A DNA stretch of 64,000 nt from Pontiella sulfatireligans. GTDB lineage: Bacteria > Verrucomicrobiota > Kiritimatiellia > Kiritimatiellales > Pontiellaceae. Below, piece by piece: positions 16,942 to 41,720 of this stretch. Position numbers and translations under genes: made by a program. The stretch lies in assembly GCF_900890705.1 (NCBI RefSeq), contig NZ_CAAHFH010000001.1, forward strand, positions 2,914,001 to 2,978,000. The letters run 5' to 3'. A model generated the notes under the pieces. The model saw only the letters and a list, made by a program, of their open reading frames with translations. It did no database searches and was not told the origin of the DNA. Every line of letters begins with the position of its first letter. Positions within the stretch are counted from its first letter, which is position 1.

Positions 16942-18532
16942 GAATGCCACTTCCTTAAGCTGCTTTGGCATTATATTTACTCCGATGCTTTATCTCGATC
17001 ATTTCATGACGATGCAGTGTTAAAAGTTGATAGGGTTTGAGTCTTCTTTTAAGGCATCGCGGCTCACTCCTTCCGGGCCGAAAGGGAATTATATTGGTGC
17101 GGATCGAATCGAGCAGGTTTTCCCGTATCCGAAGGATTTCGGATGGGCAAAGCGCGGCTCGATTAAAGTATACTTCCGCCTGCCGGAGTGCTTGTAGTGC
17201 GCCTTTATAACTCAGCCGCATGGGGTCTTTTTCATGAGCGTGCGCGGTCTCATAGATCAAATGACGAATGGCATTGTAGGCGATGAAATACATGAGCAGT
17301 TCCTTCCGAATCATCGCGGGGGATTTGCAACGCAATATATCCATTTTCGTGGTTGTTTTTAGGTCGCGAAAAAAGAGTTCAACGCTCCATCTGCGATAGT
17401 AGAGGTCGGCGATACTCTTTGCTGAATAGATAAGCGGATCGAGTAGCGTAGTGATGATGTAAAAGCTTTTCACTCGGAATCCAGGCTGCTCAACATCGAC
17501 TTTGATTTGACGCAATAGAAGCTCTTCGGGCAACTGGTTCCACTCGTCTTTCGGGAGGGGTGCCTTTTTATACCAAGCGGGCCTTTCCCAGCGAATCAGG
17601 AGATCATTGTTCGCCAACTTTTTGATGCAGGTCTGTTCCGTTTTCGGTATTCGACGCGCTAATGGAATGATACTGTCAACGCCCTTTTCTCGGAGCCGAT
17701 CAACATCATAAAAACTACAGAACCCTTTGTCCCCCAGGAAAATATCCCCTTCCTTGAAAGTGCCTTCCTGCTGGCGAAGCAAGGGGAGCTCATGGTTTTT
17801 TTTATTTCCGACTGCATAGCTTAGAATTGCGCCCGTCGCGAGATCGAAACAGCCGAGCAGGCGCATTGTCGGGAAACCGCACCCTTTTTTTTGAGAGGAA
17901 ATTTGAGGCCATTCGTCTTGATTTTCAGAGGTGTCAGGCATACTCAACCCCGTTCCATCAACAACAATAACGCGCCGGCCCGCGAGAGGCTGATCGTCGA
18001 GGTTAACATGAAACGACTCTGAGGTGTGTTTGAGGATTTCGACCAAATCCGTCTCCTCTAGTTTTTTTCGCGCCTTGCAGTAAGAACCCGTGGAAACGGA
18101 CAGCGACTGATCACTATTGAAAGCGAGATATGTTTTCAGTTTTTTAACGACTTCAGCACAGCCCCCATCGGCATCAATAATCTGAGAAAAGAACGCCCAG
18201 AAAGTGGTTTCCTTGCTGAAAATACGGTGACGACTATGATGTCCCTTCACATTGTTTTTCAAAAAACATTCGGGAATGAAACGTCCGAAACAAGCTTTTA
18301 GACCCAGCAGTGATTTGTCTTTTTTATGCATCATTTCATCGGCCATTATTTGTGCCGTAGAGCGCGGTTTTTTACGGAGCGATTGAAGATGAAGTCCAGG
18401 CAGGAATGGTGTTGTATTATTCATGCAAGATACTTGCATTCTTCGTGATATATATCAAGATAATAGCATTGGTTTTTACCCTAAAACTGCGGTTTTATGT
18501 GTGTGATAGGAGCCCTTAAGGAAGTGCCATTC
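16942..18532 (-). mobile_element. IS4-family insertion sequence with 11-bp target duplication
   Basis: Terminal inverted repeats of 18 bp lie at 16942-16959 and 18515-18532, with one mismatch. The flanks carry an identical 11-bp direct repeat, GGGTCAGTCCT, at 16931-16941 and 18533-18543. This fits the 9-12 bp target duplication usual for IS4. The element is 1591 bp with one complete transposase gene, whose stop codon lies inside the left terminal repeat. It appears intact and possibly young. The target is itself a copy of a short repeat that recurs at 18543-18624. Confidence 0.9.
16955..18439 (-). CDS. IS4-family DDE transposase
   Basis: The 494-residue protein carries the DDE triad in typical spacing: VVDGTGLSM (first Asp), FLGDKGFCS (second Asp) and the IS4 signature Y-x2-R-x3-E-x6-K in YYRRWSVELFFRDLKTT. 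It binds the terminal repeats and cuts and pastes the element. The start at 18439 is chosen for length; an ATG at 18424 is also possible. The coding sequence is full length with no disruption, so the element may be active. It is AT-richer than its neighbours, as expected for acquired DNA. Confidence 0.93.
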   Translation of the reverse strand: MQVSCMNNTTPFLPGLHLQSLRKKPRSTAQIMADEMMHKKDKSLLGLKACFGRFIPECFLKNNVKGHHSRHRIFSKETTFWAFFSQIIDADGGCAEVVKKLKTYLAFNSDQSLSVSTGSYCKARKKLEETDLVEILKHTSESFHVNLDDQPLAGRRVIVVDGTGLSMPDTSENQDEWPQISSQKKGCGFPTMRLLGCFDLATGAILSYAVGNKKNHELPLLRQQEGTFKEGDIFLGDKGFCSFYDVDRLREKGVDSIIPLARRIPKTEQTCIKKLANNDLLIRWERPAWYKKAPLPKDEWNQLPEELLLRQIKVDVEQPGFRVKSFYIITTLLDPLIYSAKSIADLYYRRWSVELFFRDLKTTTKMDILRCKSPAMIRKELLMYFIAYNAIRHLIYETAHAHEKDPMRLSYKGALQALRQAEVYFNRAALCPSEILRIRENLLDSIRTNIIPFRPGRSEPRCLKRRLKPYQLLTLHRHEMIEIKHRSKYNAKAA

Positions 18533-18542
18533 GGGTCAGTCC

Positions 18543-18624
18543 TGAAAAAAAGGGGTCAGTCCTATGAAATGATGTTTTCCGCATGAAAAAAAGGGGTCAG
18601 TCCTATGAAATGATGTTTTCCGCA
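18543..18624. repeat. Two tandem 41-bp repeats containing GGGGTCAGTCCT
   Basis: Two identical 41-bp units are adjacent (18543-18583 and 18584-18624). Each carries A7-GGGGTCAGTCCT followed by ATGAAATGATGTTTTCCGCA. Further partial copies flank the IS4 element. The motif looks like REP-type DNA, the kind mobilised by TnpA-REP (RAYT) transposases, but no such gene is in the window. Confidence 0.75.
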
Positions 18625-18908
18625 TTTTCCCCACCTATGAAACCATTTCAAAAAATTCATTCCACCCTGCTCCAACGGAGGAAAACAGGGGCCAGCAACC
18701 TTCAGCCAGCTCAATACGTAGTGAATCCGTAGGCGCGTGGCCTCCGGTCGCCCTGATTTCTTTGCGCCGACTCTTCAGAGTCTTATAATCCAATCCCATA
18801 CCACCCTGTTCCAATCCCCCCAGACCGTAGCTATGAGGAAAATATCGCAAACAGTGCCGCACAGCAAGCTATAACGCTTATAATACTCATCGGTTTACCA
18901 GTGTTTAG

Positions 18909-18917
18909 TGGTATAAT
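18909..18917 (+). promoter_or_regulatory. Candidate extended -10 promoter
   Basis: TGG followed by TATAAT gives a perfect extended -10 element. No good -35 box is found at the usual distance, which extended -10 promoters can tolerate. It points at the hairpin-rich segment that ends in the terminator at 18980. Confidence 0.45.
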
Positions 18918-18923
18918 TTACTA

Positions 18924-19009
18924 GTCCCGTGCGCACGGGGAGAGCGCAAGTGCAAGGTATAAGGGGAAAGTGCGAATTACAGGATGGAAATTCATCCCTG
19001 TTTTTTTTT
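18924..19009 (+). ncRNA. Candidate small RNA of about 85 nt
   Basis: Between the extended -10 at 18909-18917 and a terminator at 18980-19009, no ORF with a ribosome site fits. The 5' end would begin with a perfect hairpin (CCCGTG/CACGGG, 18926-18939), and the 3' end with the terminator stem. It does not match 6S, tmRNA or SRP as I know them. It lies at the downstream end of the recombinase/ParB module, on the opposite strand. Expression is untested. Confidence 0.35.
18980..19009 (+). terminator. Rho-independent terminator
   Basis: A 7-bp stem CAGGATG/CAT(C)CCTG with one bulged C and a 6-base loop is followed by nine T residues (19001-19009) on the plus strand. Confidence 0.65.
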
Positions 19010-19143
19010 GCATGAAGCGCAGGTGCGGCTATTGCGTGGAGATCTCTCGGACCTGCCGGTTTGAAGAGCCATAGCTGACGATGCCGACGTCGAGACCTGA
19101 ATCTTTGATTTATACGATGGCCGTTACAGTACCTCGCCGTATA

Positions 19144-20001
19144 TCATTTCGAATCCATGACGATTGAATTCATATCGCCGAGCACTGAGGGATGCAGCTG
19201 TTCAATGTGTTCGCGGATTTCGGGGGTTGTGATGACTTTGCGGGCGTAAAGGGAGATCTTGAGCAAGTCGGCGGAATAGGTGCGGTAAAGCTTGGTGTAG
19301 AAATCGTGCTGCTTTTCGGCCTGCTCCAACCGTTCTACCAGGACAAGGCGCTGTTCGCGCTCGTTTTTCTTCCGGCCATATCGGGTGCCAGGGGTGTTGA
19401 GCCGAAGCTCGGGCGGCGTTTTGAGAACCAGCGCCCGGATGAACGCCGGGGTGTGATCGCCAACCCGATTCATCTCCCGGAGCATTTCGAGCTGTCGCGC
19501 CGGCTTAACGCACGACATTTCGCTGGCGGCGGTTTTTCCGATGAGATCGTTCTTGAAGGCCTGGGCCACCTGCGGATGCAACCGTTCGACAAGCTTCGGG
19601 GCAAGCCGGTGCCGGATCGTTTTCATGCCGAAGGTCTCGGCGATGGTTTTCTCGTCGACGGATTCCATGGATTTGCGGAGCATGCGCATCTCCTGAAAGC
19701 TGGAGAGGTTGTTGACCATGCGGTTGAAGGTGTAGGCCTCCTTGTCTTTGAAGACGACGCAAGGAGCGGTTTCGAGCTCCAGCTCCTGAAACGCGAGCCA
19801 ACGAAGATAGCCGTCGAGGATGATGTATTGCCCGTTTTCGTGGAAGACGCAGAACGGTTCGATGAGCCCGAGCGAGCGGATGCTCGCCAGAATCTTGAGG
19901 TAGCCGCGATGTTTGGCGGTGTTGATGTTTGTCCGCTCCCGCAAAGGCTTGAGGGCGGCGAGCGGTACGTCGATGCCTTCCACGTTGTAGGGTTTGTTCA
20001 T
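19144..20001 (-). CDS. ParB/RepB-like protein, second of a pair
   Basis: The start is the ATG at 20001, with GGAGGAAGAGCA just upstream, giving 285 residues. The N-terminal part (about 5-105) is a ParB-type nucleotide-binding domain: IASIRSLGLIEPFCVF, then YIILDGYLRWLAFQEL, where DGYLR stands in place of the usual GERR. A helix-turn-helix region with TIAETFGMKTIRHRLAPKLVE follows, then a RepB-like C-terminal part and a long helix of charged residues (about 215-255). ParB/RepB proteins bind DNA and spread or act in partition. No ParA ATPase is nearby, so a partition role is doubtful. It is the last gene of the module. Its translation start region is duplicated 350 bp upstream (see 19991). Confidence 0.75.
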   Translation of the reverse strand: MNKPYNVEGIDVPLAALKPLRERTNINTAKHRGYLKILASIRSLGLIEPFCVFHENGQYIILDGYLRWLAFQELELETAPCVVFKDKEAYTFNRMVNNLSSFQEMRMLRKSMESVDEKTIAETFGMKTIRHRLAPKLVERLHPQVAQAFKNDLIGKTAASEMSCVKPARQLEMLREMNRVGDHTPAFIRALVLKTPPELRLNTPGTRYGRKKNEREQRLVLVERLEQAEKQHDFYTKLYRTYSADLLKISLYARKVITTPEIREHIEQLHPSVLGDMNSIVMDSK

Positions 20002-20014
20002 TGCTCTTCCTCCA
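19991..20014. repeat. Direct repeat of the parB-like start region, copy 1
   Basis: These 24 bp include the ribosome site and the first four codons of the gene ending at 19144. They are identical to 20341-20364. See the finding on the duplicated start. Confidence 0.85.
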
Positions 20015-20412
20015 GGGGGGTTAGAAACTGGAAACTTGAAACCTGAAACTGGAAAGGGATTTAGGCAAAATGATTTGGAGGCAGAATGATGGCCCTGCGG
20101 ACGAAACGGTGCGGCGTGATGCTGCGCAAACGCGGGCTGTGCCGGGGCGGAAGAGATAACCACGAAATATACAGAATACACGAAACGGGGCGGACGGGTT
20201 TTGTTGGCCACGAGAAGGCGCACACGCAGTGAGGCTGGCATGAAGTGACGGCAGCGAAGCGGCAACGTACACGAAGATAAAATGTGCGAGCGGTGTGGAC
20301 TGAATTTTGAACCACTAAAGACACGAAATACACTAAAGACGGTTTGTTCATTGCTCTTCCTCCAAAGGAAAGTTTTCCTCCTCCGCCAATGGCAACGGCG
20401 GACAAGTAGGTT
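20002..20412. other. Inserted junk-repeat block between the two parB-like genes
   Basis: The 411-bp gap has no supported gene. Between the two direct repeats lie a GAAACTGGAAAC/GAAACCTGAAAC motif (20022-20053), a GGCAAAATGATTT word near 20063, and CACGAAATAC-type words near 20160-20190 and 20310-20340. These belong to repeat types that occur in other gaps of this window. Confidence 0.6.
20341..20364. repeat. Direct repeat of the parB-like start region, copy 2
   Basis: Identical over 24 bp to 19991-20014. Here the ribosome site and ATG lead into a frame with no ParB similarity. Confidence 0.85.
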
Positions 20413-21327
20413 TTAAGTGCCTGGTGAAGACGGCACGGGCAGCTCGACGCCGTATTTTCCTTCGAGCGCTGGAGGAGTCGCCAGACCATGGGTCTGCATC
20501 AGAATGATTAGCTCCGAATCCTCCATCAGCGAAGAGAGGTTCATCAGCAGTTGAAGCAGGCGGTTTTCCTTCTGTTGGGTTTCGCGCACGAAATCCTCTT
20601 TATCCTTCGTGCTTTTGGCGATCTCGCGCTTCAAATCTACGAGGGAGTAGCCTTCAGACCGTTGGCCTCGGCTTTTGTTGCTTTTGCCATGCCTGAATCG
20701 AAGCTGAAGCAAACGGCGCACGCGTGCCACGGACGAGCTGCTGACCACGCCGCCGTCGAAGGCGTCCATCAGCACGTTCTGAATGGTGGTGTTGTCGGAC
20801 TTCGCCACCTGCATGGCGAACGACATGGGAAAGAGCCCCTGCTCCACACCTGTGATCAGACGGCCCTCCCCCTGCTCGACAAGCCGGACATAGTCGCCGA
20901 CGTAGGAGTCGCTCTTGCCGACGATCCGGCCAATCTCAGAGAAATTGAATCCGCCGTCATGCATCCGCTTCATCTCTTGGGCAAACCACATGGTACCGGG
21001 CGGCACGCGCGCAATGTTTTCAACGAGCGAATAGAGCAACGCGGTTTTGCGGTCGCAGTCGATCACCTCGGCGGCGATTTCGTCCCGGCCCAGCTCTTGG
21101 TGGGCAAGGAAACGGCCTTCGCCGCAGACCAGCTCGTATTTTCCGTTACGAGAGAAGCCCCGACCGTTGACCACGATCGGCTTGCGGAGTCCGACCTCCT
21201 CGATGCTGCGGATATTCTCGGCAAACTTTTGCCGGTTCCGGTTGCGGGAGTTGAGCACCACGATGGTGTCGATGGGGATCAACTGATACGTGCGCTCCGC
21301 CATCAGGGTAACCTTTTTGTTTTTCAT
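20413..21327 (-). CDS. ParB/RepB-like protein, first of a pair
   Basis: The start is the ATG at 21327 with GGAGG seven bases upstream, giving 304 residues. Residues about 13-105 are a ParB N-terminal domain: IPIDTIVVLNSRNR, the GLRKPIVVNGR strand, then YELVCGEGRFLAHQELG, which matches the ParB GERR box region, and SLVENIAR. A helix-turn-helix follows at about 118-165 (FSEIGRIVGKSDSYVGDYVRL), then a RepB-like helical C terminus with a predicted coiled coil (LVDLKREIAKSTKDKEDF). It is coupled to the tiny upstream ORF by an ATGA overlap. It and the gene at 19144 differ in sequence but share architecture, which suggests they act as a pair. The likely role is DNA binding; no ParA is nearby. Confidence 0.8.
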   Translation of the reverse strand: MKNKKVTLMAERTYQLIPIDTIVVLNSRNRNRQKFAENIRSIEEVGLRKPIVVNGRGFSRNGKYELVCGEGRFLAHQELGRDEIAAEVIDCDRKTALLYSLVENIARVPPGTMWFAQEMKRMHDGGFNFSEIGRIVGKSDSYVGDYVRLVEQGEGRLITGVEQGLFPMSFAMQVAKSDNTTIQNVLMDAFDGGVVSSSSVARVRRLLQLRFRHGKSNKSRGQRSEGYSLVDLKREIAKSTKDKEDFVRETQQKENRLLQLLMNLSSLMEDSELIILMQTHGLATPPALEGKYGVELPVPSSPGT

Positions 21328-21410
21328 CTAGAATCCTCCGTGGAAATGTAGAAAAGGTTCTTTTTAAAATCGATACTGCACGGGTCGGAAGTACTTTTTA
21401 TTTTCTCCAT
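21324..21410 (-). CDS. Tiny ORF (28 aa) coupled to the parB-like gene
   Basis: The ATG at 21410 is preceded at seven bases by GGAGGAG, one of the best ribosome sites in this region. The frame gives 28 residues, MEKIKSTSDPCSIDFKKN and ten more, and stops at the TGA of an ATGA overlap with the parB-like start at 21327. The same frame is also open upstream to a TTG at 21536 that overlaps the recombinase stop, so a 70-residue version is possible. It may be a leader peptide for coupled translation. Without homologues it stays a candidate. Confidence 0.4.
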   Translation of the reverse strand: MEKIKSTSDPCSIDFKKNLFYISTEDSR

Positions 21411-21529
21411 TCCCCTCCTCCGGAGTTCCGATTTTACCCCATCTACTGCGGTTTGAGCTCCTCGGAGTAGGTTGCTACACCGTCGGAACGCATACCTTAT
21501 ATCTGCATCAAACTTGGAACCGGAAATCT

Positions 21530-23041
21530 TTAGCAACTTACAATGCCCTCCAGTCCTATGAGTTTTTCCAATGCCTGGGAAAGGGTGTAGGCGTGCAGAT
21601 CGAGTTTTTCCGATGTCGTGGTCGAGACCTTAATTTTGTGTCCCCCCATCATCAGCCGGGGAAAGAAGAGATAGCCCAATACGTCGTATTTCCCGCCATT
21701 GGAGAGCGGGACGCCAATGGTGATGTCGATCTCGGGGCTGACATCGGGCATGAATGTCCACTCCTCCTCATAGCCATGGGGATATGGAATGACGGGCTGA
21801 ATGCGGATGCTGACATAGTTTCGCAGCACGATGAAGTCGCCGTATTCTTCGGTCTCGCGAACGAGCTGCTTTATGGTCTGGGTGACTTCGGCCCGGCGAG
21901 AATCGATGACTTCTGCAAAGAGGTGCTGATAGGCTCCCGTGAAGGTTTTGAAGCGTTTGGCGTAGGTGGCGGCGGAGACCATTTCCTTGTCGGCCGCGAC
22001 CAGCGAAGTGCGAACGGTGCCGTATTGTTCGTAGATATGGCGCAGGCGTTCGAGCATGTCCTCGGCGGAATATTTGATGCGCCGGGCTTCCTCGGCCACC
22101 GCGATCACCGCCTGGGCTTTGCTGAACAGTCCGGGATCCACAATGGCCGGAAATGCGTTTTCAGCACGTATCCACTCCTCCTTTGGATTGTGGTGGCTGG
22201 CGGATTTGAGGCGCTGGGTGGTTCTGTTGTAGACCATCGTGCCGGCGTACAGCTCATTTTCCAGTACAGAGCGAACCGAGGCATGCGACCACTGGCACCC
22301 CCCGGGTGACGGGATATTCTGTTTGTTCAGGGTCAACGCAATCTGACTTGGAGAATACCCCCATTCAACGAACTCCTTGAAGATGCGCTGGACTACGGCG
22401 ACTTCATCCTCCGCACCCGGCGTTAAAGTCACGCGCTGGTTCTGAATGCTCTTGCGCTGGCCTCTTTCCAATATCTGAACGGGATTGCGCTGCTCATCCA
22501 ACAATAGGCGATGGAATCCATAGGGGGGCATGCCTCCGGCGCGGAAGCCTTGGCTGGCAATCTTCGCGCAGCCTTTAAAAACCTTGGTGCTCAGCTCTCG
22601 GCTGTAGCTGGCGGCACGGTAGCGCTCAATGCTTAGATGAAGACCGTGAAGCAGATCGTTTTGCTCGCCGAAACCGATTGAGGTGAATACCACCTGCTTT
22701 CCGTGCTTTGCGCATAGCCCGGTATAATAGGCGGAGAGGTCGGTATCTTGATAGCGACCCCATCGGCTGACATCGAGCACCAGCACAAACTCAAAGGCTT
22801 CCTTTTCGCCTTCCACATAGTCGCTGATCATTTCGTTGAAGCCGTCGCGACCTTCGGTTGAAAGACCGGACTTCCCGCGGTCGGCGAATTCGCGGATGAT
22901 CTCGATTTCGTGCTCGCTGGCAAACTGGCGCACCTGATCCTGCTGGATCTCGACGGAGTTTTCCTGCCGGTCCTGGGCGGAATGGCGATAATACGCCACC
23001 GCCCGCCATTTGCTGGCTTTGCTCGTGTTGAACCAATCCAT
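21530..23041 (-). CDS. Large serine recombinase
   Basis: The 503-residue protein has an N-terminal resolvase/invertase catalytic domain (about 12-155). The nucleophile is Ser21 in YYRHS, and the other hallmarks are SVEIQQDQVRQF, FADRGKSG and VLVLDVSRWGR. A recombinase domain follows (about 170-290) with MPPYGFHRL and a second-half motif ALTLNKQNIPSPGG and NELYAGTMVYNR. The C-terminal part has no paired Cys motif, so the zinc ribbon of phiC31-type integrases appears absent or replaced. It cuts and rejoins DNA at short att sites. Start at 23041, behind a G-rich stretch. It follows the sigma-like gene after 83 bp. A partial tRNA at 24377 may mark its target or that of an earlier element. Confidence 0.9.
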   Translation of the reverse strand: MDWFNTSKASKWRAVAYYRHSAQDRQENSVEIQQDQVRQFASEHEIEIIREFADRGKSGLSTEGRDGFNEMISDYVEGEKEAFEFVLVLDVSRWGRYQDTDLSAYYTGLCAKHGKQVVFTSIGFGEQNDLLHGLHLSIERYRAASYSRELSTKVFKGCAKIASQGFRAGGMPPYGFHRLLLDEQRNPVQILERGQRKSIQNQRVTLTPGAEDEVAVVQRIFKEFVEWGYSPSQIALTLNKQNIPSPGGCQWSHASVRSVLENELYAGTMVYNRTTQRLKSASHHNPKEEWIRAENAFPAIVDPGLFSKAQAVIAVAEEARRIKYSAEDMLERLRHIYEQYGTVRTSLVAADKEMVSAATYAKRFKTFTGAYQHLFAEVIDSRRAEVTQTIKQLVRETEEYGDFIVLRNYVSIRIQPVIPYPHGYEEEWTFMPDVSPEIDITIGVPLSNGGKYDVLGYLFFPRLMMGGHKIKVSTTTSEKLDLHAYTLSQALEKLIGLEGIVSC

Positions 23042-23124
23042 GCCCGCCGTTCCCTTTGGTAAGGTAAAAATGCAACAGCCCTCTACCTATGGGGGGAAAT
23101 ACAGGCACTTTTGGGCCATAAAAT

Positions 23125-23634
23125 TTATTTTTCTTGCCGGGTTCCCGTTCGGGCCTCCCGCATGAGTGCGCCGATCAGCTCCCTGGCCCGGCGCCGGGTA
23201 AGTGCCGAATCGAGCAGCTCGTCGAAGACCGACAGAATACGTGCCCGGCGGTTGCTTTGCCCAGCGCGCGCCTTCGCCGCCTTGTGAATCGCCTTTCGCA
23301 ATTTGCGGAATGCGCCCCCAACTTGACGCCCTCCCCGCAGCTTGCCCATCAGATGCTGCGACACCGTTTGCTGGGAGATTCCGAGAGTGGTGGCCACCTC
23401 CACCTGCGTCCGGCCTTCGAGACAATAGAGCTGCACCACCTGCTGCTGGCGACGAGAGAGAACCAAGAGAAAATCGACGGCCACCACCCCCATCTCATGT
23501 TCCGTTTGCAGGCGGCCATACACAGCATCCTGCGCTTCCGCCGATTGCTGTTGCCACAACCGAAAAGCCTCCCGCTCCCATTGCTCCGGGGTAAGAAACT
23601 TTTCCCGCCATGCCCCATCATAATCATGTGTCAT
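23125..23634 (-). CDS. Sigma-70 region 4-like DNA-binding protein
   Basis: The 169 residues contain a sigma-factor region 4 helix-turn-helix at about 60-105: LSRRQQQVVQLYCLEGRTQ, EVATTLGISQQTVSQHL. Region 2 is missing, so this is not a complete sigma factor. The N-terminal 45 residues are acidic and the C-terminal 60 are Arg-rich and helical. The start is the ATG at 23634 with AAAGGG upstream. It is the first gene of the leftward module and probably a transcription regulator of the recombinase and ParB genes, similar to the small region-4 proteins encoded by phages and integrative elements. The role is an inference. Confidence 0.7.
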   Translation of the reverse strand: MTHDYDGAWREKFLTPEQWEREAFRLWQQQSAEAQDAVYGRLQTEHEMGVVAVDFLLVLSRRQQQVVQLYCLEGRTQVEVATTLGISQQTVSQHLMGKLRGGRQVGGAFRKLRKAIHKAAKARAGQSNRRARILSVFDELLDSALTRRRARELIGALMREARTGTRQEK

Positions 23635-23727
23635 ATCCCTTTGTAGAGGGCATTACAGAGGGAGCAACAAATGATCTGAATAAGTCACCATCCACAAACC
23701 TTGCTCAAAAGGCCATTCTTGATTAAC

Positions 23728-24207
23728 ATGTGCAACATGGGTAATTCGGCAGAACATCTGGTACTCGAAAAGTTGATCGATGCTTCAAACGACAGCGATC
23801 CATTTCTTCTGGCCATGGATAGAGTTTGCGAAAAAAAGGGTCACACCGAAAAAGTCGATCATGAGGTTTTTCAAGCATTCCCCCAAAGCACTGATAAAGA
23901 GATGTCAGGGATGATGTGCTTCATCATTATTGCCCGGAGAAATGTTGTAAACAGGATGATGGACGACAACGCCCCAGACGAAGATTTTATAACCCTTGTA
24001 ACTAATATGCTCTTACTTGTTGCTCGTGGGCGGCTTTGGTTTGGGGATGAGTTTGAACTTGTATACGCCAAACCAATCGGCCCATCGCCAACCCCCGAAG
24101 AATGGGACGCCATTCACCAACGAATCGACAATACCCGGCATATGATCGGGGAGGCCTACCTAGCCTGTGGCCAAGCGAGTTCCGAAAACAGCCAGAAAAC
24201 CGTCTAA
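23728..24207 (+). CDS. Hypothetical protein, accessory region
   Basis: I do not recognise this protein. From the ATG at 23728 it has 159 residues; a TTG at 23719 with AAAAGG six bases upstream is an alternative start. It is mixed helical, soluble and Met-rich. It contains FIIIARRNVVNRMMDD, a hydrophobic TLVTNMLLLVARGRLWF stretch and the acidic SPTPEEWDAIHQRIDN. It lies divergent from the sigma-like gene and just inside the split tRNA, so it probably belongs to the integrated element. The gene ends 170 bp before the tRNA fragment. Confidence 0.55.
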   Translation: MCNMGNSAEHLVLEKLIDASNDSDPFLLAMDRVCEKKGHTEKVDHEVFQAFPQSTDKEMSGMMCFIIIARRNVVNRMMDDNAPDEDFITLVTNMLLLVARGRLWFGDEFELVYAKPIGPSPTPEEWDAIHQRIDNTRHMIGEAYLACGQASSENSQKTV

Positions 24208-24376
24208 AAAAAGTTCGGGGGAAAGTTCGGGTTTGGACCATGAAAAAGCATCCTTTTTCAAAAAGTTTCAGTCGCCCTTGACACCAAACCCAATTTATGT
24301 ATCATATTGGTTCAGAGGCTGATAAAGAAACGAATTGCAACGAGCGACGTGGTAAAATGCAAGCTACAAAACCTAT
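24208..24376. other. Element end: short repeats and TTGACA box
   Basis: This gap holds two AAAGTTCGGG words (24211 and 24222), a GAAAAAG/CTTTTTC dyad (24242-24259) and a TTGACA box at 24278-24283 with a poor -10 (CATATT). There is no gene. The sequence runs straight into the truncated tRNA. Confidence 0.45.
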
Positions 24377-24412
24377 TGGGAAGCTGTCATTCTACCACTG
24401 AATTACTCCCGC
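24377..24412 (-). pseudogene. 5' half of tRNA-Gly(CCC), truncated in the anticodon loop
   Basis: On the minus strand the sequence starts GCGGGAGTAATTCAGTGG and continues through TAGAATGACAGC to TTCCCAA. This gives the acceptor 5' strand, a D arm, the 5' anticodon-stem strand and a CCC anticodon, closely matching bacterial glyU. After the loop the sequence continues TAGGTTTTG and does not form the 3' anticodon strand, T arm or acceptor, so the gene is cut. Integrases often target tRNA genes at the anticodon or T loop. The fragment sits 54 bp after the stop of the Agl23-like gene, in the same direction. The 3' half was not found in the window. Confidence 0.75.
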
Positions 24413-24466
24413 TCAGTGTGAACGTTGGATTTGTACCGTCAACCCGCCGGAGATACAAACCAAAAA

Positions 24467-25972
24467 CTATTGGCGCGTCTGCATGAATGCATCCCACAGG
24501 CTGGTGCGGATGTGGATGGCCATGAGGGTGTCGGCCCGCAACCCATAGTATTCGGAGAGGTAGGCGTCGGGATCCACTTCAAGCGCGGGCGAGGAGATGA
24601 TGATGTCGGCTGGGGGATGGACGGGCAGCGGGTCGGCGGCGTCCCAGTATCCAACATTTTTAAAGCCGCGCAGATAGAACGGCAGGGGCCACATGGCCTT
24701 GGGATCGGCGGCCACCTGGATATAGAGTTCATTCCCCTTTGGGCTGACGGCTTCAAGGTCGCCGATGCGGCGCACGAGGTTCATGAAGTCGGGGGCGGTG
24801 TGGGCGTAGACGTAGGGGTTGCGGTAGTCGGCGGCATAGCGCCGGGTTGTCCGTTCCGCCTGACCGGCAAGCTGCGCCGAGGCGAGCAGGATGGGAACCA
24901 CCCAGAGCCAGCTCCAGCGCCCTTTTTGCACCAGCGCCCCCACCCCGATGCCGGCGAGAATGATCCAGCCGTGCAGGAACGAGAGCATGCACCATGGCGT
25001 CTTGTAGGGAATGACGGAGTAGACGGCGGTCAGCAGCAACGTGTAGAACATGATGAAGCGGGCCAGGCCGAGGTCGCAGTTGGCCGGAATCTTTTTTAAA
25101 ACAATCGAAGCGCAGCCGCCGAGGCCAAGGACAAGGATCAGCGCCTCGCTCCAAACCGGGCCGCCATCGAACCGGTAGAACGAGAGCATCCGAAGGTAGA
25201 AATACCACGGATGGACGTGGTCGGTATTCACACCGGTGCCGCGCGCAAAATAACCCTGATAGGCCATGATCGATTCCAACGGGCCGTCAACGTTGGTGAA
25301 GAACGAGGAAAAGAGAACAATGCTGACGAAGATGGCGCAGGCGGCAGCCAAGAGCATGTTTTTAAGGGGCAGGTGCACCTTGCGGTCGATCACGGCGCAC
25401 AGAATGGCCGCGCCGAACAATGCGGCGTAGGCCATGATGGCCGTTTCCTTGGTGGCGAACATCAGCCCGAGGGCCAGCCCGCAGGCCGCCGCCCAGCGCC
25501 GGGAGCCGCTGCGCCAAGAGAGCCAGCCTGAGGCTATGGCCAGATAGGTAAAGAAGACCAGCAGCATTTCCTGGATGTAGAAGCGGCTGTAGTAGGCCAT
25601 CGCTGGAGAAATGGCAGAGAACAGCGCAACCGCAAGCACCGCCACGCAGCCGATGCCGGAACGCAGCAGCGGCGTGCAGAGCACCAGCAAAAAACCAAAA
25701 AAGGCCGGCACAAGGCGGTAGGTCCATTCATTCGAGTCAACGAAGGTTTGAACCCCCGCTAGCCAGGCGGAAGGGAGCGTGAGATAATAGAGCGTCGGGC
25801 CGTGATGGTCGTCGGCGTCGTAGGTGTATTCCCCGCTTTCGAGCAGGATGCCGCAGCGGTAGGCCTGGTTTGCCTCGTCGTGGTGCATGGGGCGCTGCTC
25901 GAGGCCCGGCAGCCGGAGCCACAGCGCCATTGCGAGGGTGAGCATGAATACGATGGGCATCCAGTAACGCAT
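24467..25972 (-). CDS. TIGR03663/Agl23-like polytopic membrane protein
   Basis: The start is the ATG at 25972, two bases after the dciA-like stop, giving 501 residues. About ten hydrophobic segments alternate with short loops. The first loop has LEQRPMHHDEANQAYR, an acidic motif like that of GT-C and dolichyl-phosphate mannosyltransferase folds. Later markers are SPAMAYYSRFYIQEM, LMFATKETAIMAYA and SVIPYKTPWCML, which recall the TIGR03663 family, known in archaea as flippase-associated Agl23. It probably transfers or helps flip a lipid-linked sugar. The substrate is unknown. The gene ends just before the split tRNA. Confidence 0.75.
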   Translation of the reverse strand: MRYWMPIVFMLTLAMALWLRLPGLEQRPMHHDEANQAYRCGILLESGEYTYDADDHHGPTLYYLTLPSAWLAGVQTFVDSNEWTYRLVPAFFGFLLVLCTPLLRSGIGCVAVLAVALFSAISPAMAYYSRFYIQEMLLVFFTYLAIASGWLSWRSGSRRWAAACGLALGLMFATKETAIMAYAALFGAAILCAVIDRKVHLPLKNMLLAAACAIFVSIVLFSSFFTNVDGPLESIMAYQGYFARGTGVNTDHVHPWYFYLRMLSFYRFDGGPVWSEALILVLGLGGCASIVLKKIPANCDLGLARFIMFYTLLLTAVYSVIPYKTPWCMLSFLHGWIILAGIGVGALVQKGRWSWLWVVPILLASAQLAGQAERTTRRYAADYRNPYVYAHTAPDFMNLVRRIGDLEAVSPKGNELYIQVAADPKAMWPLPFYLRGFKNVGYWDAADPLPVHPPADIIISSPALEVDPDAYLSEYYGLRADTLMAIHIRTSLWDAFMQTRQ

Positions 25973-41098: not shown

Positions 41099-41360
41099 AC
41101 GTGACGCGACTGCAAGGAGCGAGGCTTACGCGAAGCGAAGCCCCGAAGGGCAAGCCGAAGGCGAAGCAAACGTGAAACGTGAAACGTGAAACGTGAAACG
41201 TGAAACGTGAAACGTGAAACGTGAAACGTGAAACGTGAAACGTGAAACGTGAAACGTGAAAATTGTTTTGCAGCGCAGGGAGCCCTTCAAGAACAATCAC
41301 GGCTCAACCGTCACTTTTCACGAAACGAATCACGACTCAACCATCACGCATTAAAAAAAA
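41099..41360. other. Repeat-rich gap downstream of the response regulator
   Basis: This stretch has a GGCTT/AAGCC dyad near 41123-41142, the heptamer tract at 41168-41265 and a CACGGCTCAACCGTCAC-type segment (41297-41350), which resembles the repeat at 51860. There is no gene. Confidence 0.6.
41168..41265. repeat. Tandem heptamer tract, 14 units of AAACGTG
   Basis: Fourteen exact copies of the 7-bp unit AAACGTG run without interruption for 98 bp. A tract of this kind is prone to slipped-strand changes in copy number. It lies 69 bp past the response regulator stop and has no coding role. Confidence 0.9.
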
Positions 41361-41720
41361 GACAGGCAGGGCGGTAAGCCGGATTCTGTTCTCCCGAAGG
41401 AGTCAGTCATTTATCTAGTGCGTTCAACCCGCGACTATTAGCGATGCGGGCAGCATCATCGTCGCCTATTTGATCTTGCTCCGGACGGGGTTTACCCTGC
41501 CCCCTCGGTTGCCCTCGGGGCGGTGGGCTCTTACCCCACCTTTTCACCCTTACCATTCCCGCTCAAAGAGCGGGCATGGCGGTATATTTTCTGCGGCACT
41601 TTCCATCCCGTGCGATATCGCACACGGGTTCCCGCGTTAACCACGGAACGTCCTGCCCTGCGGAGTCCGGACTTTCCTCCCCCCGCCGAAGCGAAGAGCG
41701 ACCGATACACCCTGCCTGCT
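41361..41720 (-). ncRNA. rnpB: RNase P RNA (class A)
   Basis: On the minus strand the RNA starts near 41720 with CAGGCAGGGTG and ends near 41361 with CCCTGCCTG, which pairs as helix P1. Class A marks are GGAGGAAAGTCCGGACTCC near the 5' end (conserved region I), AAAGTGCCGCAGAAA in the middle, GGTAAGGGTGAAA and a GGGTAAACCCC loop, and the 3' conserved AGAACAGAATCCGGCTTAC. Length is about 360 nt, as usual. A run of eight T follows the P1 3' strand and can end transcription. The RNA cleaves tRNA 5' leaders. Confidence 0.96.

Follow-up and report, generated by a model that had tools for sequence, protein, structure and literature searches.

A displaced tRNA-Gly(CCC) 5' half as the probable attachment junction of a tyrosine-integrase element in Pontiella sulfatireligans

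The stretch of DNA analysed here, which is 64,000 nucleotides long and is referred to as the window, contains the 5' half of a tRNA-Gly(CCC) gene that is cut in the anticodon loop. This half is very probably the attachment junction of an element with a tyrosine integrase for which anticodon loops are the site of recombination, and its present location would result from displacement of the half during integration and a later split of the element. An element family was thereby identified across an order of little-studied bacteria, and the case suggests how a tRNA half can still mark the address of an island after the opposite end has been relocated.

The truncated gene and its intact counterpart

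The cut gene and the bases that precede it on the same strand are arranged as follows.

24376..24412, minus strand: displaced 5' half of tRNA-Gly(CCC), positions 1-37, exact match
24413..24419, minus strand: seven bases upstream of the tRNA half, still 6/7 identical to the intact gene
24420..24466, minus strand: probable native 5' flank of the tRNA-Gly half, read by eye

A preliminary description had read an exact tRNA-Gly(CCC) on the minus strand from position 1 through the anticodon loop, and comparison with the intact gene of the same genome bears this out. A 36-mer of the half, which occurs once in the window (24377-24412, minus strand), is identical to positions 1-36 of the intact tRNA-Gly(CCC) at 36 of 36 bases, and none of 100 dinucleotide shuffles matched the 36-mer at three or fewer mismatches. 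Base 24376 corresponds to tRNA position 37, the last base of the anticodon loop, which places the cut at the 3' edge of the loop. When this base and the seven upstream bases are included, the alignment with the intact gene covers 44 bp at 98% identity. A weak -10-like TACAAA can be picked out by eye in the 5' flank at 24430-24435 and is absent from the promoter scan output. Genome-wide, a loop-proximal 20-mer (up to three mismatches) has two occurrences, one in the window and one at the intact tRNA-Gly(CCC), and a search of the window for the matching 3' half (25-mer, up to three mismatches) found none. ARAGORN called no tRNA in the window, and cmscan listed none in 24000-24700 at a threshold as permissive as E<=5. 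The preliminary description had allowed that a covariance-model score below noise would tell against a tRNA origin, and the cmscan result comes close to such a score. Little weight is given to the silence of either program, however, because a half gene without the T-arm and the 3' acceptor strand is expected to fail.

An intact tRNA-Gly(CCC), which was to be sought elsewhere in the genome, is indeed present. The sole copy found lies on contig C2 of this genome (G000; L006 8775-8849, at about 463.8 kb), while the window half is on contig C1. An arm-like sequence, GAAAGTTCGGGTTTGG, is located about 76 bp upstream of the 5' end of the intact gene, and the start codon of an integrase gene that reads away from the tRNA is located about 155 bp upstream. 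This tyrosine-integrase gene, which puts the integrase end on the 5' side of the intact tRNA, is truncated and its frame is soon broken; 43 residues align at 65% identity. Over 226 bp, tRNA included, the intact tRNA-Gly and its 3' flank match at 79% the corresponding sequence (L013) of G028, a relative within the same taxonomic family, which makes it probable that the 3' half is native to C2.

The two loci fit a history in which a copy of the 5' half of tRNA-Gly(CCC) was already present on the element, beside the integrase gene, the order before integration being distal end, loop, tRNA 5' half and integrase end. Recombination in the anticodon loop would have joined the 5' half of the element to the native 3' half and so restored tRNA-Gly(CCC), which would now be situated behind element DNA consisting of the element-borne 5' half and its upstream region. 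The native 5' half would have been carried away to the opposite end of the element and would now adjoin a distal end of about 150 bp with arm repeats. A later rearrangement may then have parted the two ends, leaving the integrase end on C2 and the distal end on C1.

Both Gly ends probably once belonged to one element. The 16-bp arm GAAAGTTCGGGTTTGG occurs exactly, genome-wide, only at the two Gly ends (at a one-mismatch match elsewhere in the genome there is neither a tRNA nor an integrase), the genome has a single intact and a single displaced copy of tRNA-Gly(CCC), and the orientations of the ends fit. The same observations argue against two separate integrations, in which the window distal end and the C2 integrase end would come from different Gly(CCC) elements and none would have been split. 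That alternative draws on the location of the ends on different contigs, with no contiguous element seen, and on the richness of the genome in integrases and remnants of the family (15 matches), and it is considered unlikely.

The distal end and the element family

On the other side of the cut, the half adjoins sequence with the features of an element end.

24209..24375, minus strand: putative distal end of the element, with the common end sequence of about 150 bp
24210..24236, plus strand: paired arm-type repeats AAAGTTCGGGGGAAAGTTCGGG, 139 bp from the tRNA half
24278..24305, plus strand: outward promoter-like site TTGACA-16-TATCAT, pointing to the tRNA half

The non-coding stretch of about 150 bp that extends inward from 24375 recurs at other loci. 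A query of 281 bp spanning the tRNA half and this stretch was searched against 58 genomes, own included, and gave matches in 34 of them, many to the tRNA alone. Fifteen loci that match the stretch itself were taken for comparison. Three of these (L046, L052 and L053) match only its last 25 or so bases and are located beside integrase starts, which identifies them as integrase-side arms. The other 12 are distal-type ends. A tRNA 3' half adjoins seven of the 12 and also the end of L136, an element at tRNA-Asp; the halves are from tRNA-Asp (L041, L050 and L136), tRNA-Pro(CGG) (L051 and L045), tRNA-Arg (L047), tRNA-Thr (L048) and tRNA-Ala (L049). The first tRNA base retained lies at position 31-34 in all eight, which is inside the anticodon loop or at its border, and 128-140 bp separate the half from the arm repeats, as compared with 139 bp in the window. 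The end sequence is common to a family of tyrosine-integrase elements in this bacterial order, the Kiritimatiellales, and both family members tested (L046 and L122) have a Phage_integrase match (PF00589).

No tRNA half could be recognised at the remaining five distal-type ends (L007, L040, L042, L043 and L044). These five have the best-conserved outward promoter, and their flanks have a different short sequence in common. Genes for AbiEi/AbiEii, a type IV toxin-antitoxin system, are found near several distal ends as if they were common cargo (L007 8112-9628, L040 6504-8065, L042 7888-8808 and L041 1178-2873).

A complete sister element of 15.5 kb, with both ends seen, is present in the same genome at tRNA-Asp.

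L136 601-677: intact tRNA-Asp(GTC)
L136 from about 793: integrase gene, frame broken
L136 16143-16186: displaced tRNA-Asp positions 34-77

The displaced piece (44 bp, 100%) adjoins the distal end, and the whole is a classic island layout. The view that the cut in the window is an element boundary, located in the anticodon loop where integrases cross over, is thus strengthened by cuts in the same loop at eight other loci and by the complete sister element. When both borders are looked for on one replicon, 2-200 kb apart and in direct orientation (the Islander filters), the Asp element fits, and the Gly ends lie on C1 and C2.

The promoter-like site in the window scores 11/12 in the promoter scan. 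In a circular form of the element, transcription from this site would pass the junction of the two ends and enter the integrase gene. The layout suggests that an integrase that is divergent from the tRNA, as in the flipped polarity, could not use the promoter of the tRNA. Seven of 14 distal ends have strong promoter boxes (one with TTGACC), but just two of the nine that adjoin a tRNA half do so.

Inward from the distal end, the accessory region of the window contains the following features.

23701..24207, plus strand: ORF of 168 aa without a Pfam match, adjoining the distal end
23125..23634, minus strand: protein with a sigma-70 region 4/HTH domain
18589..23115, minus strand: block with a serine recombinase (21530-23041) and two ParB-like genes (20413-21327 and 19144-20265)
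16955..18439, minus strand: DDE_Tnp_1 transposase of an insertion sequence, at the end of the accessory region

The preliminary description had placed the half between accessory genes on the left and a housekeeping gene on the right, which agrees with the mobile-type genes on the left (serine recombinase, two ParB-like genes and transposase) and with a right-hand gene that matches PMT_2 and has matches in 17 of 28 genus genomes, own included. Neither an empty site nor a Gly element in one piece was found in any genome; gene order was too different for comparison both at the 19 relative loci approached through the PMT_2 gene and at the eight approached through the surroundings of tRNA-Gly. A homologue of the sigma-70 region 4/HTH protein, 60% identical, is located directly after an integrase in G005 (L045). 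The accessory region of the window has no tyrosine integrase gene. Its insertion sequence has six copies in the genome (96-100%), and the match to it at the C2 end is weaker and partial (76% over 143 bp). As a sequence present in six copies at the end of the accessory region, it is a plausible place for the recombination that split the element.

Two further features of the region were noted. A 29-bp motif, AAGGGGTCAGTCCTATGAAATGATGTTTT, which we take to be REP-like, stands as a tandem pair where the ParB/serine-recombinase block ends on the left (window 18548-18625) and in inverted orientation at the opposite end of the duplicate block (L158 6962-11564); it is also scattered over the genome, including L136 3036-3064 and 13857-13885 and L006 10002-10661. 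A class A RNase P RNA gene is located at window 41359-41718 on the minus strand.

The serine recombinase (21530-23041) is encoded by the only site-specific recombinase gene near the cut in the window, and the boundary could be supposed to have been made by this enzyme rather than by a tyrosine integrase. This is highly improbable, and the enzyme was rejected as the cutting agent, since a second copy of the gene (98%) is found on C1 in a duplicate of 18589-23115 only (G000:C1:1734959-1739484, 96.7%; L158), without the distal end or the tRNA half; moreover, other distal ends and the sister element accompany tyrosine integrases. The end of this block is also found inside the Asp element (L136 13855-14519). 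Hardly any credence is given to a chance tRNA-like stretch, in view of the shuffles, to a CRISPR spacer, since 24000-24700 has no repeats of at least 14 bp even though tRNA fragments that arise as spacers are described (PMC9897764), or to a functional split tRNA half, since an intact gene exists and the window has no partner half.

Polarity of the integrase relative to the tRNA

An integrase end on the 5' side of the tRNA predicts a displaced 5' half at the distal end, and the window has one. An intact tRNA was found near the integrase start in 16 of 20 fetched integrase loci. The integrase lies on the 3' side of the tRNA in 15 of these (Pro 4, Val 3, Thr 2, Ala 2, Arg 2 and Asp 2) and on the 5' side in one, which is at a tRNA-Gly(CCC) in G014. 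A like arrangement, with the integrase end 5' of the gene, is seen at tRNA-Gly(CCC) in G000 and G004, that of G004 being recognised from about 290 bp of similar DNA, with no integrase detected in its 3-kb locus. The search with the 281-bp query found no second Gly half in G014 or G004, perhaps due to fragmented assemblies.

A wider scan of named genomes yielded 46 integrase loci, several of which are places already among the 20 fetched, and the two counts overlap. An intact tRNA is located within 600 bp upstream of the integrase at 16 of the 46, and the integrase is on its 3' side in 14. At the other two, L161 (the contig of G014 already counted) and the distant L174, the integrase lies on the 5' side of a tRNA-Gly(CCC). 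In a tree of 33 rows the integrases of G014 and L174 are not placed together (AU p 2.25e-05); both are among or near long branches, and the result is hence a lead. Another 31 loci without a nearby intact tRNA were examined, 26 of them from the 46 and five from relatives. A tRNA-like piece was found at 25 of these (20 with a reversed tRNA-Met 3' half, one with a reversed Pro part, one with a reversed Gly part, and three with forward pieces of Pro, Pro and Asp), and none was found at the other six. Verrucomicrobiota loci where a tRNA-Met 3' half, reversed and cut at the anticodon loop, is found next to a related integrase include L172, L173, L175, L177 and L183-L186. The reversed orientation indicates that the integrase end adjoins the displaced fragment at such loci.

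Two simple rules for polarity were considered and given up. The identity of the tRNA alone does not fix polarity, since in 20 of the 31 upstream regions the integrase lies 5' of a tRNA-Met 3' half, and L180, where a Pro 3' part is oriented likewise, contradicts the same rule. Symmetry of the loop was dropped as a cause because the Thr, Arg and Ala(CGC) loops are by eye as symmetric as that of Gly and have the opposite polarity.

Polarity relative to the tRNA therefore varies inside one integrase family and is no simple function of tRNA identity, which is a point of modest novelty. A more tentative proposal is that the restored tRNA half switched within the family, given that the integrases of the Kiritimatiellales set lie 3' of Pro, Thr, Val, Ala, Arg and Asp tRNAs but 5' of Gly(CCC). 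Since L174 has the Gly(CCC) arrangement although the integrases of L174 and G014 are separate in the tree, the 5' polarity at Gly(CCC) might even have arisen twice, and a tRNA gene of which the genome shows a single copy would have been left dependent on element-borne upstream DNA. If the switch is true, the family would provide a natural test of crossover direction in near-symmetric anticodon stem-loops, as well as of the fate of a tRNA gene that depends on the upstream DNA of a mobile element.

Comparison with known systems

A literature search by host names found no paper on this integrase-element family. Events in which an element inserts within a tRNA anticodon loop are of a known type, and a displaced 5' half is a known minority configuration. 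In the figures drawn from the Islander paper, 159 of 3919 islands have a 5' fragment and 2083 have anticodon-centred sites (PMC4383910). The tDNA islands described there share with the present case a tyrosine integrase, crossover in the anticodon loop, and a restored tRNA together with a displaced end fragment, but here the Gly ends are divided between two contigs, and it is 3' halves that close relatives of the integrase restore. Of the features by which an island is recognised, a displaced end fragment, a restored tRNA with a truncated integrase (on the other contig) and a crossover in a known sublocation were all found.

The pTN3-like integrases are described in one review as unique in archaea for using the 5' half, with a similar case seldom met in bacteria (PMC8371274). 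According to two papers on these systems, the tRNA 5' half is the common att sequence, as proposed for the Gly element, the restored tRNA is severed from its own promoter, and large rearrangements are known (PMC8371274, PMC5495485). By the same accounts pTN3 is archaeal and its integrase gene is disrupted on integration, whereas the att site here is outside the gene.

A further parallel concerns expression of the integrase. In ICEKp1, as reported in PMC13023037, a promoter at the integrase-distal end reaches int after circularisation, and the situation is similar in ICEclc and ICEEc1. Although the switch is only predicted for the family described here, with strong boxes in 7/14 distal ends, it has in common with that of ICEKp1 and ICEclc a distal-end promoter that would reach int once the element is circular (PMC13023037).
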